In this document: piece after piece, positions 9,075 through 43,185 of the stretch
Position numbering within the stretch: the stretch's first letter is position 1
How the letters are laid out: each line of letters begins with the position of its first letter
NCBI GenBank assembly: GCA_039938515.1
Contig: JBDUUL010000024.1
Location: forward strand, 124,001 to 188,000
DNA: 64,000 bases
Direction of reading: 5' to 3'
From: Nitrososphaera sp.
Lineage (GTDB): Archaea > Thermoproteota > Nitrososphaeria > Nitrososphaerales > Nitrososphaeraceae
Position numbers and translations under genes: made by a program
The notes under the pieces: model-generated
What the model saw: only the letters and a program-made list of their open reading frames with translations
Told to the model about the DNA's origin: nothing
Databases searched by the model: none

Positions 9075-9950
9075 TCAGTGTGCGGCGTGGATGGAGCTGC
9101 CGTCGGCCTCTTTTTGCATCGTTTCGGCACCCGTCCCCTTGGACAGCAACCCGGCATGCTTTGCGGCAAGTGCACCAAGGAACATGGCCACTAGCAGCAT
9201 AACAATGACGCCGGACGGCGCCCAGTTAAGCGGATATGAGAGGATAATGCCCCCGACTGTGGCCGACAAGCCCAGCGAGATTGAAAGCAGCATCGTGTTT
9301 CTAAAACCCCGCCCGACCGTTATGCTGGTAATGTTTGGCAGGACAATGAGGGCCGATATCAGCAGTATGCCGACAAGCTTCATTGTGACAATAACTGTCA
9401 CGGCTGCAAGTATTATGAAAAGATAGGTCAGCCTTTCCACCGGCACGCCGTTGACCTTTGCCTGCTCCTCGTCGAATGTAAAGTGTAGAAGCGGCTTTCG
9501 CAGCGCTACAAGGATTCCTATCACGATGCTGGACATTACAATGATTGTGGCGAGATCAGCGTAGCTGGTCAATAGGACGCTTCCAAACAAAAAGCTGTAA
9601 AGGTCGATTGTAAACCCGTGTGCGGCGCTGACCAGAATCACCCCGAGCCCGAGGCCGGACGCAAACATGAGGGCGATGGCAGAGTCGCCCGAAATCTTGG
9701 TGCTCTTGCGAAGCCGGGTCACTCCAATCGCAGAAACCACAGAGACTATCGTTGCTGTCCAAACAGGGTACACGTTTAGCACGTATCCTATAGCTATCCC
9801 TGTAAATGCCGTGTGGGACAGTGCGTCTCCGAACAGTGAATACCTTTTTAGGACCAGATACAGCCCAAGCATCGAGCAGCAGACTGCAGCTACCGCGCCG
9901 GTGACGATCGCCCTCTGCATGAACCCGTAGCCGAGAAAATCGAAAATCAT
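9075..9950 (-). CDS. znuB: metal ABC transporter permease, ZnuB/TroC family
   Basis: The 290-residue product has about eight to nine TM segments and typical ABC-3 family features (YSLFGDALSHTAFTGIAIGY near the N-terminus, DEEQAKVNGVPVER in the middle and LLISALIVLPN late). These permeases import Zn2+, Mn2+ or Fe2+. An ATG at 9950 is chosen because the longer in-frame ORF would overlap the upstream ATPase gene by more than 100 nt and adds unrelated residues; the gap to the ATPase stop is then 5 nt. The C-terminus (SSIHAAH) contains two histidines. No substrate-binding protein gene lies in the cluster. The divergent NikR-type regulator points to metal-dependent control. Confidence 0.88.
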   Translation of the reverse strand: MIFDFLGYGFMQRAIVTGAVAAVCCSMLGLYLVLKRYSLFGDALSHTAFTGIAIGYVLNVYPVWTATIVSVVSAIGVTRLRKSTKISGDSAIALMFASGLGLGVILVSAAHGFTIDLYSFLFGSVLLTSYADLATIIVMSSIVIGILVALRKPLLHFTFDEEQAKVNGVPVERLTYLFIILAAVTVIVTMKLVGILLISALIVLPNITSITVGRGFRNTMLLSISLGLSATVGGIILSYPLNWAPSGVIVMLLVAMFLGALAAKHAGLLSKGTGAETMQKEADGSSIHAAH

Positions 9951-9955
9951 TTTGG

Positions 9956-10762
9956 CTAATTTCCGTGGTGGTGCATGTGCATCTGCATCGCTGACTCGGA
10001 GTAGTTCTTCAATGCCTCGTCGTTTGAGAAGAATTCGTCCTTTCCTCCGTGGAAGAAGAGGTCCCTGTTCATGCATGCAACCTTGGTCGCATGGTCGGAA
10101 ATGGCAGTCAGGTCGTGGGACGCCCAGATTATCGTGACTTTTTTTTCCTTGTTTATGTCGCGTATAACGCTGTAAAACTTGTTCTGCACCTCCATGTCAA
10201 CCCCGGTGACAGGCTCGTCAAGAATCATCAGGACCGGCTCTTTTACCAGGGCCTTGGCAATGAAGGTGCGCTGCTGTTGGCCGCCGGAAAGCTCGTATAT
10301 CCTCCGGGAGGCAAGCGATTCCAGTCCGACGATCTGCAGTGCCATGGCAACCTTGTCCCTGTCACTGCTGGTGCTGTCAAATATCCTGTTCCAGCTGCTG
10401 CCGGATTTTCGCAAGAGCGCTTCGCCCTTGCGCAATTTTTTTGCCGGCACGAGCCCCAGGGCCACGATGTCGGCGACGGTAGCCGGAAAGTTGGGCTCAA
10501 AGCTGACCCGCTGCGGCACATAACCGACCATCGGCAGCAGCGTCGAGTACTCTTTCCGGGCGTCATAGCCGAACAGCTTTATCTTTCCCGAATAGTTTTG
10601 CAGGCCCAGAATTGCCCTGAAAAGCGTGGTCTTGCCGGCGCCGTTGGGTCCGACTACCCCCAGAAGGTCCCCTTGCTGGACGCTGAAGCTGATGTTTCGG
10701 ATGGCAAATGCCCCGTTCAGGCTTACTGATACGTTCTCGACATCAAGCGCGCTTGCTGTCAT
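9956..10762 (-). CDS. znuC: metal ABC transporter ATP-binding protein, ZnuC-like
   Basis: The 268-residue ATPase has Walker A GPNGAGKT (residues 38-45), Q-loop YVPQRVSF, signature LSGGQQQR, Walker B MILDEP and a switch His (WASHD). It has an insertion between Q-loop and signature (KSGSSWNRIFDSTSSDRDK) and ends in a His-rich tail, HMHHH, as seen in some metal transporters. ATG 10762 is preceded by AAGGAAGG. An in-frame TTG at 10831 would add 23 unrelated residues. A short ORF (10759-10914) ends in an ATGA overlap with this start. It pairs with the permease gene 5 nt downstream and is transcribed away from the NikR-type gene. Confidence 0.9.
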   Translation of the reverse strand: MTASALDVENVSVSLNGAFAIRNISFSVQQGDLLGVVGPNGAGKTTLFRAILGLQNYSGKIKLFGYDARKEYSTLLPMVGYVPQRVSFEPNFPATVADIVALGLVPAKKLRKGEALLRKSGSSWNRIFDSTSSDRDKVAMALQIVGLESLASRRIYELSGGQQQRTFIAKALVKEPVLMILDEPVTGVDMEVQNKFYSVIRDINKEKKVTIIWASHDLTAISDHATKVACMNRDLFFHGGKDEFFSNDEALKNYSESAMQMHMHHHGN

Positions 10763-36665: not shown

Positions 36666-37361
36666 CTAGCCGGGCGAACTGGTATTGAGTACGCTGTATC
36701 TGACTATGATTTCTCCTGTTTTGCGGCTTCTCTGGACCTGTTCGAGTGCAAGGCTGAGACCCTGGGCGACGGTTGCCGCGCCGTCGCCCTCGACAAGCGT
36801 TGTTGCAAGCCTGCCGCCAACGACCTTGGGCGCGATAGTTACGACAAGCTCGTCCGCAAGCCCGAGGCGCAAAAGCGACCAGTTGAGCTCGCCTCCGCCT
36901 TCCACCAGTGCGCGCTCGACCCCGAACTGCGTATCTAGAGCATTGAACAGGTACCTGAGATCGACTCCGCGAGGAACGGCAGCGGACTGGGGTGTCCCTT
37001 CGGGCGTTACGAGCACTTGCGCGCCTGCGGCCCTTATCTTTTCCAAGCTGCGCTTAGGGGCCAGACTGGTCACTGCCACGACAGTGCTGACGTTGCGAGA
37101 GGTCTGGAGGATCTTGGATTCTGCGGGGATTCTTCCCCGGCTGTCCACTATGACCCTGAGCGGGTTTTTGCCCTTTACATAGCGGACGGTGAGCAGCGGA
37201 TCGTCAGCCAGAACCGTTGAGATCCCGACGATTATGGCGTCTGAGCTGGCGCGTAGCCTGTGCACCCTCTTGAGGTCTTGGGCCGATGAAATCTTTGAGT
37301 CGCCGGATGCGGTCGCGATTTTGCCGTCAAGCGTCATTGCCGCGCTTAAAGTTAGCCTCAT
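36666..37361 (-). CDS. arfC: 2,5-diamino-6-(ribosylamino)pyrimidinone 5'-phosphate reductase
   Basis: The 231-residue protein is a RibD_C/ArfC reductase: MRLTLSAAMTLDGKIATASG, SDAIIVGISTVLADDPLLTV, PLRVIVDSRGRIP, VERALVEGGGELNWSLL and a final FAP-like APKVVGG. It reduces the ribosyl side chain to ribityl with NADPH, the step after GTP cyclohydrolase III and deformylation in the archaeal riboflavin pathway. ATG 37361 is the correct start; the longer ORF adds a non-family extension. It is the last gene of the riboflavin cluster, 64 nt downstream of the amidohydrolase. Confidence 0.92.
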   Translation of the reverse strand: MRLTLSAAMTLDGKIATASGDSKISSAQDLKRVHRLRASSDAIIVGISTVLADDPLLTVRYVKGKNPLRVIVDSRGRIPAESKILQTSRNVSTVVAVTSLAPKRSLEKIRAAGAQVLVTPEGTPQSAAVPRGVDLRYLFNALDTQFGVERALVEGGGELNWSLLRLGLADELVVTIAPKVVGGRLATTLVEGDGAATVAQGLSLALEQVQRSRKTGEIIVRYSVLNTSSPG

Positions 37362-37425: not shown

Positions 37426-38859
37426 TCATTTGTTAGACGGGACCAGCCCCACAAATTCGCCCGATGCCATGACGCCCTTGATGCAGTCGGGACCTGCTCT
37501 CTGCACTATCGCCGCATATGGGTCATGCATCGGCGAAATGTCGATATGGTTGACGTCGATAAAAAGCAGGTCGGCAGACATTCCCGGCGCGATGCACCCG
37601 GTGTTGACGCCTAAAACTTTACCCCCGTTTACGGTGGCCATCTTGAGAACCTGGCGCGGCTCGAGCATCCCTGTGCGCGCCTTTCCAGAGTCCAGCGCCC
37701 TGCACGCCTTCCAGACATAGTCCATTTCCCGGAACATGTCCGGCGAGTTTAACATCACATTATCCGTACCGAGCGCAACAGTACATCCAAGCTCAAGCAT
37801 CAGGCTGACAGGCGGAAAGCCCACTCCCAGAACACCGTTTGCCCGGGGGCATACAACGACTCCTATCCCGCGCGCGGCGATTGATGCCAATTCCTGTTCC
37901 GTGGCCTTTGTGAGGTGCACTAGTATATCCGGCTCCAGCGCGCGGAGGATGCGCTCCACCTCGGTCTTTCCCGTCAGTGCCTTAGACGTGTTTACAGCCT
38001 CTGTAGACTCGGCGGCGTGTATTGCAACCAGCGGCTTTTCCCGCATACCCTGTGTTGATTTTGCCCGCCTGCCCACTGCTTGGTGGACTAGGCTTTGGTA
38101 TCGCGACAGGGTGGAATCTGAATGCTCGTTAGCGCCACTGAGACCAAGCCCGTCCGCATCGTCCAGCAGGTCAGTAATTTCGTTGTCGATTCTGCCTGCC
38201 TCCGGCGCACCTTGGCTCCCTTTGATGCCTGCAGTGGAGGCCGGCTGCAATTCTGACGCGGAGTCATCGTTCCTTGCGTCTGACTGTCTTTCCTGCGGCT
38301 GGACTTGGTCGTAGCCGTGCTGTGATCTTCCCAGAACAACAGCCCTGATGGGCAGACCCTTCAGCGCTTCCTTCAAAAGCATTACTCCCCGGCGGCCGCC
38401 TTCCCTAAAGTCTGCAAAGTTTACGATGCCGTTTTTCAGCATCGAGATTGCGGAGAACCGCATGAAGGCCTTGATCTGCTCCGGAGGAGTCTTTTCTAGG
38501 ATGTTTTTCTTTATTCCGAAAACCGGATTGACGCGCTCGTCAAGGCCAAGCGAGGCCCCGATGTCTTTTCCTATAGAGTCGCCTATATGCGTGTGGGCGT
38601 TGACAAAAGCAGGGATTATCAAAAGCCCGCTGCCGTCAAGCAATGCGCAGTCCCTGCCCTCCGGCAGACTGTCCTGACCGTCCTTGGACGTCCGCGATAC
38701 AGAGGCGATTAGCTTGCCGCAAATCTCCAGCCGGCCGCGCGTCACGTGTTCAAGCTCTGGGCCGGCTAGCATCTGGGCGTTGTATATTATCGTGCGCGCA
38801 GGCTTCGAGTTGTGCCGTCCCTGCCTGGAAGAGGTTTTGTTTCTTGTTATTATGGACAC
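37426..38859 (-). CDS. ATZ/TRZ-type amidohydrolase (candidate riboflavin-pathway deaminase)
   Basis: The 477-residue protein has the metal ligands of the chlorohydrolase/deaminase branch of the amidohydrolase superfamily: HxH in FVNAHTHIGDS, His/Glu in AIHAAEST, His in ILVHLTKAT and Asp in VALGTDNVMLN, followed by DMFREMDYVWKA. This branch deaminates aromatic amines such as guanine, cytosine, S-adenosylhomocysteine and melamine. It carries an unusual insertion of about 70 residues (QVQPQERQSDARNDDSASEL and onward). It overlaps the start-proximal GTP cyclohydrolase gene by 10 nt and sits between arfA and arfC. The deaminase of the archaeal riboflavin pathway has, as far as I know, no firmly assigned gene. 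Confidence 0.85.
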   Translation of the reverse strand: MSIITRNKTSSRQGRHNSKPARTIIYNAQMLAGPELEHVTRGRLEICGKLIASVSRTSKDGQDSLPEGRDCALLDGSGLLIIPAFVNAHTHIGDSIGKDIGASLGLDERVNPVFGIKKNILEKTPPEQIKAFMRFSAISMLKNGIVNFADFREGGRRGVMLLKEALKGLPIRAVVLGRSQHGYDQVQPQERQSDARNDDSASELQPASTAGIKGSQGAPEAGRIDNEITDLLDDADGLGLSGANEHSDSTLSRYQSLVHQAVGRRAKSTQGMREKPLVAIHAAESTEAVNTSKALTGKTEVERILRALEPDILVHLTKATEQELASIAARGIGVVVCPRANGVLGVGFPPVSLMLELGCTVALGTDNVMLNSPDMFREMDYVWKACRALDSGKARTGMLEPRQVLKMATVNGGKVLGVNTGCIAPGMSADLLFIDVNHIDISPMHDPYAAIVQRAGPDCIKGVMASGEFVGLVPSNK

Positions 38860-39614
38860 CGTATCTCATAGATTGGCGTTATCTTGCCCTGGTCGCGGAG
38901 ATCCCGGATTGTATCAAGCGCCTTGGTTGCCGCTTCGGCTGCCTTTCTGCCGGTCTGCCCGATGCCTATGCCGCAGTTGAACTTTACGCCCACTTCTGAA
39001 CTTGACTTGCTAATTATCGACTCTGCCTCTGCCGCGCTTACCCCGTTTGAAATTATCATAAAGTTGTCGCCCCCTAGGAAAAACGTCAGCGCCTTGAGCT
39101 TCAGAAAGTCCTCTGAAAAGCGGCTGTAGGTGCGCATAACAAGTGCAGTCACTTCATAGGGAGAAAGCCGGGCTCCAACCTTTGTCGAGCTGTCGACATC
39201 GATGTGCATGATCTGCACATGATCTGCGGGATTGCCCTGTGAAGGCAACACCGAGCCAAAGAGGTTCAGGGTGCCGTCTAGGAGCTTCGCGGTTTTTCGC
39301 GCCTCGTACGCCCTGAGGCTGGCTTCGAGGGGCGTGGAACCCGTGCCGACAGTCATTGACATCTCAAGCTTTGGAAACAGCCTCGCAAGTTCTTGTAGTA
39401 TTGCTGCATGATCCGACGCTCCTACGCCGTTTGTGACTGCAAAGTATTCGTCAAAGCGGTTAAAGAACGCAAGTGCGCCCCTGTCGGAGAACAGGCGCTG
39501 CACCTCGTAATAGACCTGCGCCTGGAGCATCTGAATCACCGCTTCTCTGTCGCTCCCAAGGGTCAGGGTCCAGGGACCATAACCTTCGACCCTGATGATG
39601 CTAAGCTGTATCAA
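38850..39614 (-). CDS. arfA: GTP cyclohydrolase III
   Basis: The 254-residue protein matches the GCH III family: [40 protein letters not shown] followed by [38 protein letters not shown] and [20 protein letters not shown]. It has two tandem nucleotide-cyclase-like palm domains, with the Asp pair in HIDVDS and the GGDN loop binding metal. It makes FAPy nucleotide from GTP, the first step toward riboflavin. Its start overlaps ribH by 4 nt and its end overlaps the amidohydrolase start by 10 nt, so these genes are tightly coupled. Confidence 0.94.
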
Positions 39615-40129
39615 TGAGAGTGATGCCCGCCTGTATCATGAGTGGTTTGCAGTCCTATGGTAACCAATGATGATCCCCGCTCGTTGCGGGTTTTTTCTAG
39701 TTTTCCAAGCCTATCTACCATTTCGACGGCCGCGCTTACAGCCCGGACCGGGACGGACTCGGCCCGTTCCTTTGCCTGCTCCACCGTCATGCCCGGCCCG
39801 CTAATTCCAAGGGCTACTGGCTTTCCGTATTTCAGAGAGAGATCGGCGAGCAATCGGGAGGCGTTCTCTGCAACAATATCATCGTGCCGGGTTTCGCCCT
39901 TTATGACCGCTCCAAGCGTTACTACCGCCTGAACCTCATTTTTTTTCAAGAGCGCCTCGACGGCAATGGGCATTTCAAATGACCCGGGTACGTAAAAGAC
40001 GTAGAGTAACGTCGCGCCGAGCCGGGCGGCCTGTTCTTTTGCCCTGTCAAGCATCCTGTAGGTGATGTCGCTGTTAAATTCCGAAACGACGATTGCCAGG
40101 CGGGCCTTTTTCTTGGTCTTTGCTTCCAT
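39611..40129 (-). CDS. ribH: 6,7-dimethyl-8-ribityllumazine synthase
   Basis: The 172-residue protein has the lumazine synthase core: [60 protein letters not shown] with the catalytic His, and [20 protein letters not shown]. It joins dihydroxybutanone phosphate to the ribityl pyrimidine. The usual end-motif T-x-x-N/T-x-x-Q-A-x-x-R is replaced around [12 protein letters not shown], within family variation. A His-rich C-terminus (HDTGGHHSH) is an addition. It follows ribB by 30 nt. Confidence 0.94.
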
Positions 40130-40159: not shown

Positions 40160-40840
40160 TTATTGTACCCTAGCATTTGCCTTGAGTTCTTCCGATTCTA
40201 CCAGCGGTATCGAGTGTTTTTTTGCAAAGTCGCCGGCCTTGTCGATTCCGAGCGAGCCGTGAGTCTCAGAGTCCATCATTTCACATATGGCCACGCATGG
40301 AGTGAGCCCGGCAAGCTGCATGAGATAGACGCACAGCTCCGTATGGCCCATCCGTTCATGCAGCAGGCCTTTTGAAGCGATCAGGATTGGGACATGCCCC
40401 GGCGCCCGGAAATTTCGGGCAAAATCCTCCTTGCCTGTCGATTCAATGTTTTTGCAAACCATGGCCATCTGCGAGATTGTAAGTGCCCTGTCGCGATCAG
40501 TAATCCCGGTAAAGGTGTCTCTGTGGTTTACCGGTATAGAGAACGACGGCTTGTCGCCGTAGGCAGCCTTGCCCTGTGTTATCCGGCTATAGACGGGATT
40601 TAGCTTTCCCATGCCCTCGATAATGTCATGCAGGTAAACTAGCCCGAGTCTTGTCGCTATGTCATGGCTTATCGCCAGGCAGAGGAGCCCTCCCGCCTGT
40701 GTTCGCATCAGCCCAACGTGCTCCGGCTTTATTCGCTCGGCAGAGATTACCATATCGACCTCGTTCTCCCGCCCCTTGTCATCGTGAACTAGGACAAAAC
40801 TCCCGTTCCGCAATGCGTTGATGGCCTCGGTAAGCGCCAA
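40160..40840 (-). CDS. ribB: 3,4-dihydroxy-2-butanone 4-phosphate synthase
   Basis: The 226-residue protein has the DHBP synthase signatures: FVLVHDDKGRENEVDMVISA (the acidic D-x-x-x-R-E-N-E-x-D loop), LMRTQAGGLLCLAISHDIAT, FSIPVNHRDTFTGITDRDRA, APGHVPILIASKGLLHERMG, the catalytic H-x-x-x-x in GHTELCVYLMQLAGLTPCVA, and CEMMDSETHG. It makes the four-carbon unit from ribulose 5-phosphate. The start is TTG. A minus-strand A/T box (AATATTTTAATAAG) lies about 30 nt upstream, and just beyond it a perfect inverted repeat at 40885-40900. Confidence 0.95.
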   Translation of the reverse strand: MALTEAINALRNGSFVLVHDDKGRENEVDMVISAERIKPEHVGLMRTQAGGLLCLAISHDIATRLGLVYLHDIIEGMGKLNPVYSRITQGKAAYGDKPSFSIPVNHRDTFTGITDRDRALTISQMAMVCKNIESTGKEDFARNFRAPGHVPILIASKGLLHERMGHTELCVYLMQLAGLTPCVAICEMMDSETHGSLGIDKAGDFAKKHSIPLVESEELKANARVQ

Positions 40841-41236: not shown

Positions 41237-41482
41237 TCAACCGCCTTTTGAAGCAATTCCTTGCATCCATTCACTGGAATACCTGCCGCCTGTGCCAGGT
41301 GTCTTTCCGCGTAACGCCGCATGTGGCTTAACAAAGTCGTATTGAAGCCGATTGCCTTCCGCAATCGGAGTACTGACAGTTTTCCACCCGCGCTGAACTT
41401 TGACGCGTTCCCTCAGAGTGCCGTTCATCCGCTCGACCCGGCTGTTGGTGTGCTGCTTCTTCCTGTCTGGTCTGATGGAAAA
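41237..41482 (-). pseudogene. transposase remnant (C-terminal DDE-domain fragment)
   Basis: From a stop codon at 41483-41485 to the TGA at 41237, the frame encodes IRPDRKKQHTNSRVERMNGT, LRERVKVQRGWKT, NRLQYDFVKPHAALRGKTP. These are the last catalytic-domain motifs of IS transposases/integrases (N-x-R-V-E-R-M-N-G-x-L-R-E-R and Y-x-F-x-x-P-H-x-A-L-x-G-x-T-P). Only the C-terminal 80 residues remain and the N-terminal catalytic Asp region is missing, so the element is dead. It overlaps, in another frame, the end of the riboflavin synthase ORF. Confidence 0.8.
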
Positions 41483-42093
41483 TTAGAACCCAGAATCTGC
41501 GAGACGTACTTGCCCAGGACATCGATTTCAATATTCACGGGATCCCCCTTCTTCTTCGTGCCGAGGGCTGTAACATCAAGGGTATGAGGAATAAGCGAGA
41601 CGGAGAACCTGCGCCGGTCTTTGTCAAGGCCGGTTATCGTGAGGCTAACCCCGTCAACCGTGATTGAGCCTTTCATTATCAGTGGCCTGAATAGCTCGTC
41701 GCTGGCAAGCTCTATCCAGACCGTCGTTTCAGCCTTTGAGCGGACTATTTCGGCGATTCTTCCCATGCCGTCGACATGACCAAGGACGAAGTGACCTTCC
41801 AGGCGATCGCCTATCTTCAGTGAGCGCTCGATGTTTACGCTGTCGCCGACGTGCAAAGATCCAAGGAAGGTCCGCCGCGTAGTCTCTGCGACCAGCTGAA
41901 ACTCTGCCGCGGTACCCGAACCGAGTACTCTGGTAACAGTGAGGCATGACCCGCTGACACTGACGCTGTCGCCGGCCCGAAGACCTCTTGCGAGCCTCTT
42001 TCCAAGGCTTAGCACAATAGAGATGTCGGCGCCGCGATTTGAATTGGAAATTGATTTTACCTTGGCGACGCCCTGGACAATGCCTGTAAACAA
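41425..42093 (-). CDS. ribC: riboflavin synthase, C-terminus derived from a transposase remnant
   Basis: The 222-residue protein has two lumazine-binding barrels. The first starts L/M-F-T-G-I-V-Q-G-V-A-K-V and shows SVSGSCLTVTRV, ETTRRTFLG, NIERSLKIGDRLEGHFVLGH and V-D-G-M-G. The second shows TVDGVSLTITGLD, SVSLIPHTLDVTALGTKKKG and NIEIDVLGKYV. This is the eukaryote/bacteria-like homotrimeric enzyme, not the archaeal RibC paralogue of lumazine synthase. The start is TTG 42093, about 28 nt from the minus-strand box AAATAAATATTC; the longer ORF adds non-family sequence. After VLGKYVSQILG the last residues (SNFPSDQTGRSSTPTAGSSG) are read out of frame from the transposase fragment. Confidence 0.9.
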   Translation of the reverse strand: MFTGIVQGVAKVKSISNSNRGADISIVLSLGKRLARGLRAGDSVSVSGSCLTVTRVLGSGTAAEFQLVAETTRRTFLGSLHVGDSVNIERSLKIGDRLEGHFVLGHVDGMGRIAEIVRSKAETTVWIELASDELFRPLIMKGSITVDGVSLTITGLDKDRRRFSVSLIPHTLDVTALGTKKKGDPVNIEIDVLGKYVSQILGSNFPSDQTGRSSTPTAGSSG

Positions 42094-42168
42094 CTGACAA
42101 TCGTGCGGAACGCATGTCGAATATTTATTTGCAGTCAGCTGCCAGTCACTCCGGGGCAAGATACTGGA

Positions 42169-43185
42169 ATGTGCAATACGGCAGTCTTTTACGGCAAGGA
42201 GCTTGCCAGGTACGGCTTTGGAGAGTCGCATCCCTTTGGAAACGACAGGCTGGACGCGTTCTGGACTGTTTTTAGAAAAGAGTGCCTCCAAAATGCCGGC
42301 AGCGCAAATGGAAGCGGCAGACATTTTGCGGACAGCATCAGGATCGAGCAGCCTGCCCTCGCCACAGATGACAAGGACAGTCCGCTTTGCGGGTTTCATG
42401 GCAGAAACTACATCGAGTTTGTGAGAAAGTCGTCCGTTGCCGGAACAGGGTACCTTGACCGTGGAGACACTCCGGCCTTCACGGGGGTTTATGAAGCCGG
42501 CCTGTACGTCGTGGGCACAACCCTTTCAGCGCTTGACATGGTCATGACGGGGCGCGATTCGATGGGGAACAAGATTGAACACGCAATGAATCCCATCGGA
42601 GGGCTGCATCATGCCCGGAGGGACGCGGCCGGAGGGTTTTGTGTCTTTAACGACATCGGTGTGGCCATAATCGCGGCGCGAAAAAAATATGGCGTGAAAA
42701 AGATAGCATACGTTGACATCGACGCCCACCACGGCGACGGCGTATTTTACGAATTCGAGGATGACCCGCTCGTCATTTTTGCTGACATTCACGAGGACGG
42801 GAGGTACCTCTACCCCGGGACAGGATTTCCGGGTGAGATAGGCAGAGGCGCCGCCGAGGGAACCAAGCTCAACATCCCTCTCGAACCGGGCGCCGGAGAT
42901 GAGGAATTTTCTGCCGCATTTGCAGCAGTAGAGCAGTTTGTCGATGCCGCAGAGCCAGAACTGATAATACTTCAATCCGGCGCCGACGGCCTGGATGGTG
43001 ATCCGATAACACACTTGAAGTACTCGAGCAAGTCGCACAGGCTAGCGGCTGATTCTCTTCACAGGCTTGCGCACAGGCACTGCGCTGGCAGGATTATTGC
43101 ACTTGGCGGCGGGGGATACAACAGGGCGAACATCGGCTACGCTTGGACAGAGGTCGTCAAATCGCTCGCCGGCCCACCGGTTTGA
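42169..43185 (+). CDS. histone-deacetylase/AcuC-like deacetylase
   Basis: The protein of about 338 residues has the arginase-fold deacetylase motifs: YGFGESHPFGNDRLDAFW, GLHHARRDAAGGFCVFNDIG (active-site His pair and Asn-Asp), YVDIDAHHGDGVFYEF (metal Asp/His) and LQSGADGLDGDP. It likely removes acetyl groups from proteins or small amines such as polyamines. ATG 42169 begins the family homology; an upstream frame from 42103 is not family-like. Its A/T box (AATATTTATTT at about 42118-42128) overlaps that of the divergent riboflavin synthase gene. Confidence 0.9.
   Translation: MCNTAVFYGKELARYGFGESHPFGNDRLDAFWTVFRKECLQNAGSANGSGRHFADSIRIEQPALATDDKDSPLCGFHGRNYIEFVRKSSVAGTGYLDRGDTPAFTGVYEAGLYVVGTTLSALDMVMTGRDSMGNKIEHAMNPIGGLHHARRDAAGGFCVFNDIGVAIIAARKKYGVKKIAYVDIDAHHGDGVFYEFEDDPLVIFADIHEDGRYLYPGTGFPGEIGRGAAEGTKLNIPLEPGAGDEEFSAAFAAVEQFVDAAEPELIILQSGADGLDGDPITHLKYSSKSHRLAADSLHRLAHRHCAGRIIALGGGGYNRANIGYAWTEVVKSLAGPPV

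Follow-up and report, generated by a model that had tools for sequence, protein, structure and literature searches.

The window, a stretch of 64,000 nucleotides from the genome (2.56 Mb, 99.8% complete) of a Nitrososphaera, one of the ammonia-oxidizing archaea (AOA), carries a minus-strand cluster of riboflavin genes in which an amidohydrolase gene lies between arfA and arfC. The following features were assigned:

41425-42399, minus strand: ribC, bacterial-type riboflavin synthase (NF006767, 205 bits from residue 103)
40160-40840, minus strand: ribB, DHBP synthase (PF00926, 189 bits; TIGR00506, 208.3 bits)
39611-40129, minus strand: ribH, lumazine synthase (PF00885, 135.3 bits; TIGR00114, 140.2 bits)
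38850-39614, minus strand: arfA, GTP cyclohydrolase III (PF05165, 178.5 bits)
37426-38859, minus strand: candidate archaeal riboflavin-pathway C2 deaminase, an ATZ/TRZ-type amidohydrolase of NF005552/PRK07213 (assigned from NF005552, PF01979 and its clade)
38587-38595, minus strand: metal-binding HTH motif (H89-T90-H91) of the candidate, both His invariant in 83/83 family and 12/12 outgroup sequences
37837-37851, minus strand: CPRAN motif (C337-N341) of the candidate with the family-specific R339 (R in 98% of the family; V, T and S are the commonest outgroup residues)
37762-37764, minus strand: catalytic Asp D366 of the GTDN motif of the candidate, invariant
36666-37361, minus strand: arfC, 2,5-diamino-6-ribosylamino-pyrimidinone 5'-phosphate reductase (RibD_C, 164.2 bits; TIGR01508, 183.9 bits, slightly below the cut-off of 186.45)

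The original prediction had described the order ribC, ribB, ribH, arfA, amidohydrolase, arfC and a 10-nt overlap with arfA. Both were borne out by the ORF coordinates and by the Pfam and NCBIfam matches, the start of the amidohydrolase ORF (477 aa, GTG start) sharing 10 nt with the 3' end of the arfA ORF. The ribC product also matched the lumazine-binding riboflavin synthase of Pfam (144.6 bits); its ORF as listed is too long, since the domain begins only at residue 103. Divergent from the cluster lies a gene of the histone deacetylase family (PF00850; 42103-43185, plus strand), whose start overlaps the over-long ribC ORF. A PF00850 homolog was also seen upstream of ribC in a same-family relative (L040, 4097-5074), and more distant homologs lie 1-2 kb from arfA-arfC in the Thermoproteaceae loci L136 and L137.

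In Pfam the amidohydrolase matched PF01979 (140.6 bits) and PF07969 only; neither PF00383, the deaminase domain of RibD, nor the creatininase fold PF02633 was matched. In NCBIfam it scored 315.4 bits on NF005552/PRK07213, which is named 'chlorohydrolase' and has a curated cut-off of 294, and the ArfB model NF033501 was absent among the best 25 matches listed. Residue conservation was analyzed in 83 aligned family members and 12 outgroup rows of ordinary ATZ/TRZ proteins. The ATZ/TRZ-type motifs HTH (H89, H91), HAAE (H281, E284), VH (H315) and GTDN (D366), which had been claimed beforehand, were all found, and H89, H91, H281, E284, H315, N341 and D366 are invariant in the 83 members and common to the outgroup. 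Moreover, the AlphaFold2 model of the protein (pLDDT 88.7, pTM 0.89) retrieved ATZ/TRZ deaminases from the PDB with a probability of 1.00, the isocytosine-specific deaminase Vcz occupying ranks 2-5 and guanine deaminases ranking lower. Two stretches peculiar to this member, its first ~20 residues and residues ~185-220, were modeled with low confidence. The window protein has the mononuclear HxH, His, Glu, His, Asp site in an amidohydrolase fold.

A second set of residues, namely D94, K117, E153, R178 (90%), R339 (98%), N367 and R454 (99%), is invariant or nearly so in the family only; some were lost in distant members, as in the Thermoproteaceae-like family f12, where R178 is replaced by E, and in genome G074, where CPRSN reads SPASN. 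These residues matter for the possibility that the protein is a general salvage deaminase for SAH, methylthioadenosine, 5'-deoxyadenosine or guanine which merely happens to be located in the operon, as the superfamily and fold are common to SAH/MTA deaminases and guanine deaminase. In the SAH/MTA deaminase TM0936, Glu84 binds the hydroxyls of the ribose in adenosyl substrates. When TM0936 is numbered from its HxH at 55/57, this position corresponds to K117; 83/83 family members have Lys there, and 10/12 ordinary ATZ/TRZ proteins have Glu. The invariant Lys would argue against SAH, MTA or deoxyadenosine as substrates; SAH and 5'-deoxyadenosine are two of the compounds whose exclusive deamination would, according to the original prediction, have refuted a riboflavin role. 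Furthermore, the family forms a separate clade, 50 family proteins and 12 ordinary archaeal ATZ/TRZ proteins being divided by a branch with an SH-aLRT support of 100%. Within the clade the AOA, Sulfolobales, Thermoproteaceae, Halobacteria and Asgard members sort roughly by lineage, which is consistent with an old and mainly vertical history. As the linkage to riboflavin genes also recurs in different arrangements, we regard a salvage function as very unlikely.

This linkage, which the original prediction had proposed to examine in relatives, was found repeatedly. The order arfA, candidate deaminase, arfC is kept in 28/28 AOA loci inspected. Of the 88 members in Thermoproteota, arfA is the adjacent gene for 51 and arfC for 45, and 63 members have one or the other within 5 kb. 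In the genomes of family f21, a group which we read as Sulfolobales-like, the gene directly follows arfA in 11/11 cases and forms an operon with ribB and ribH in the order ribB-..-ribH-arfA-candidate. The candidate adjoins arfC in families f16, f17, f30, f35 and f37 as well as in Lokiarchaeia, where it precedes arfC, and Freyarchaeota (Freyarchaea) and Jordarchaea possess a ribB..ribH-arfA-candidate-arfC operon. It is unlinked to riboflavin genes in f12 and in families f14 and f24, and haloarchaeal members lie outside the riboflavin operon, whereas those of AOA and Sulfolobales lie inside. Since the same neighbours recur throughout the AOA loci and in unrelated lineages with other arrangements, the clustering is not due to chance. 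In the same-family relative L040 (genome G227; 9115-10008) two ORFs separate the amidohydrolase from arfC, a small one and one for a GNAT-like acetyltransferase. Besides, a MAG labelled Spirochaetes (L092, 7959-9140) carries a family member beside decarboxylase- and dehydrogenase-like genes, and neither ArfA nor ArfC is matched in its genome; this may reflect contamination, transfer or a different function.

Co-occurrence with arfA and arfC across archaea had been suggested as a further check. A family profile of 29 members (A3) was searched against 250 Thermoproteota genomes, in which members reached at least 250 bits and every other match at most 184. With ArfA counted only above its model cut-off, 88 genomes had a member and 84 had ArfA; both were present in 83, the member alone in five, ArfA alone in one and neither in 161. 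Co-occurrence with arfA is near-perfect, the candidate being found in 83/84 genomes with and 5/166 without ArfA (nominal Fisher p 6e-59, which ignores relatedness), and is partly inherited by descent. The sole ArfA-only genome (G074) holds a copy which has diverged; in the tree it sits on a long branch within the family clade. Three of the five member-only genomes have arfC next door, and the other two are incomplete (76% and 62%).

Two groups were considered as possible counter-examples. Thermoproteaceae, which at first resembled one, possess ArfA and ArfC without a strong match to NF005552, a model which scores Sulfolobales and Thermoproteaceae members below its cut-off. With the wider family profile almost all of these genomes yielded one member, so the apparent gap is due to the sensitivity of NF005552. 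The other group, ArfC-like proteins in genomes lacking both ArfA and the family, consists of isolated genes outside riboflavin clusters, and an ArfC-like match alone is therefore no pathway marker. Two Nitrosopumilaceae-like genomes carry a further ArfA-like gene away from the riboflavin cluster (G245:C31:239-934 and G068:C9:5396-6088).

A strong family member was detected in 144/145 genomes of Halobacteria; the remaining one, G362, retains ArfC. Some Halobacteria (G257, G347, G348, G366, G379, G297 and G405) carry a second strong member. Paralogs therefore exist, and a haloarchaeal copy could have another role. A set of 32 genomes, largely euryarchaeal and Asgard, had with few exceptions been chosen for carrying the gene; ArfC was present in 28 of them. 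In five of the 32 (Mnemosynella, Altiarchaeota, Lokiarchaeia, a Methanosarcinales MAG and Methanoxibalbensis) the gene occurs without an ArfA match, an absence that is soft where the genomes are MAGs, and all five have ArfC. The gene is thus tied to the ArfC stage and not to ArfA, which fits a step after ArfC. The gene and ArfC, without a GTP cyclohydrolase III to open GTP, were seen in G254, G256, G260, G262 and G265.

The position of the step deserves consideration, as linkage and co-occurrence do not fix the exact substrate and several members stand beside arfA, not arfC. A pathway enzyme could also act before the reductase, only after dephosphorylation, or chiefly in the deazaflavin (F420) branch. 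The retention with ArfC in ArfA-less genomes speaks against another order, as does the review PMC13028884, according to which reduction precedes deamination in archaea, and the four family-specific basic residues would fit a phosphorylated substrate. We therefore consider a different substrate or order improbable, and favor deamination directly after ArfC.

The original prediction had further allowed that the protein replaces the deformylase ArfB, and had asked whether arfB is absent. A single creatininase-family protein is encoded in the window's genome (G000:C6:92417-93079; L004:1480-2193), so that a candidate deformylase with the appropriate fold exists. It reached only 34.6 bits on the ArfB_arch model (cut-off 180) and is nearer to MftE/creatininase models; it is a possible non-canonical deformylase. 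The gene upstream of it on the same strand resembles formyltetrahydrofolate deformylase (PurU). In Thermoproteaceae, which carry the amidohydrolase family as well, a creatininase-family gene adjoins arfA-arfC (L136:8246-8932 and L137:10567-11223), and its two products scored 46.4 and 43.4 bits against the same cut-off. None of the proteins tested passes the strict ArfB model, which would leave room for a replacement. However, creatininase-family proteins coexist with the candidate in both settings, in Sinorhizobium a protein of this family, BrbF, has been proven to be a deformylase (PMC9478397), and the active site and relatives of the candidate are those of amino-group hydrolases. A replacement of ArfB is accordingly disfavored and seems extremely improbable.

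The three PF01979 proteins of the window's genome are the candidate deaminase, the urease alpha subunit and a dihydropyrimidinase-like protein. A search with PF00383 found no RibD-type deaminase in this genome, because the sole protein matched is ComEB/dCMP-deaminase-like.

Taken together, arfA co-occurrence, repeated independent linkage to arfA and/or arfC and the deaminase residues support the amidohydrolase as the archaeal riboflavin deaminase candidate. Very probably it acts at C2 of 2,5-diamino-6-ribitylamino-4(3H)-pyrimidinone 5'-phosphate, which we infer to be its substrate as the product of ArfC in riboflavin and deazaflavin biosynthesis. Hydrolysis of the 2-amino group would yield 5-amino-6-ribitylamino-2,4(1H,3H)-pyrimidinedione 5'-phosphate and ammonia. 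By analogy with ATZ/TRZ deaminases, H89, H91, H281 and D366 would bind a single metal that activates the water, while E284 and H315 would shuttle protons and stabilize the attack at C2. The family-specific basic residues would suit a 5'-phosphate, and judging from their conservation K117, R178, R339 and R454 may hold the ribityl phosphate. With its unrelated fold, the protein would substitute for the CDA-type deaminase domain that RibD has in bacteria. It is also likely, with slightly less assurance, that the whole clade serves as the riboflavin C2 deaminase across archaea, in Thermoproteota, Halobacteria, several methanogen/ANME lineages, Altiarchaeota and Asgard, was inherited mainly vertically and recognizes a phosphorylated isocytosine-like nucleotide through its family-specific basic residues. 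If true, RibD deaminase would have a counterpart of unrelated fold, and the phosphatase would be left as the main unassigned step.

The prediction has a precedent. According to PMC8305020 (2021), riboflavin synthesis in Haloferax had three gaps, candidates for two of which came from Rodionova et al. 2017 (PMID 28073944): HVO_1235 as the ArfB candidate, and HVO_2483 (34% to MJ0699, 'also predicted for MJ0699'), which Table 6 lists between arfC and the phosphatase gap EC 3.1.3.104. That paper lists asd as HVO_2487. After the family gene, Haloferax elongans has a 144-aa ORF, a UspA-like gene, birA, biotin carboxylase and asd; this order puts the family gene at HVO_2483 or one number off, and within this stretch near asd it is the plausible deaminase. 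With the locus tags matched by Haloferax gene order, HVO_2483 and MJ0699 very probably belong to the family of the window protein, and a deaminase role for this family has very probably been published already, on the basis of comparative genomics. The description of the archaeal deaminase as unassigned therefore stands with respect to experiment and falls with respect to prediction. In the open-licence literature, whose scope leaves out many journals, we found no experimental proof of an archaeal riboflavin deaminase and no match for MJ0699 or HVO_2483 beyond PMC8305020. A 2022 paper ascribes the archaeal deamination step to RibD; the earlier assignment has thus not spread.

Accordingly, the window gene is a well-supported candidate from an already predicted family and no new kind of system. 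Our analysis adds support from the shared occurrence with arfA, from the variety of gene arrangements, from genomes that keep the gene with ArfC although ArfA is absent, and from residues specific to the family. As the archaeal pathway to riboflavin and the F420 precursor lacks an experimentally proven deaminase, the candidate makes a long-open step directly testable. Our results also suggest that the name 'chlorohydrolase', which databases still use, is probably misleading for the many archaeal genomes that carry it.

Among known systems, the closest counterpart is the HVO_2483/MJ0699 prediction, which fills the same pathway gap; the haloarchaeal genes differ in their location outside the riboflavin operon. 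NF005552/PRK07213 is the family of the window protein itself, and its name suggests an atrazine-type dechlorination for which nothing here gives support. The isocytosine-specific deaminase Vcz (PDB 7ww2, 8is4) and guanine deaminases (6oh9, 2uz9) have the same fold (probability 1.00) and act on a 2-amino-4-oxopyrimidine ring by releasing its 2-amino group, which is the reaction and substructure proposed for the candidate; yet they share only ~16-21% identity with it and their substrates are free bases. TM0936 (1p1m) and AtzA (4v1x) are among the best PDB sequence-profile relatives (147 and 151 bits) and have the same metal and catalytic residues, whereas Glu84 of TM0936 is Lys117 in the candidate, whose clade stands apart from ordinary archaeal ATZ/TRZ proteins. 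Finally, the RibD deaminase domain (CDA fold, PF00383) performs the type of deamination proposed here within riboflavin synthesis, in bacteria before reduction, and its fold is unrelated to that of the candidate.
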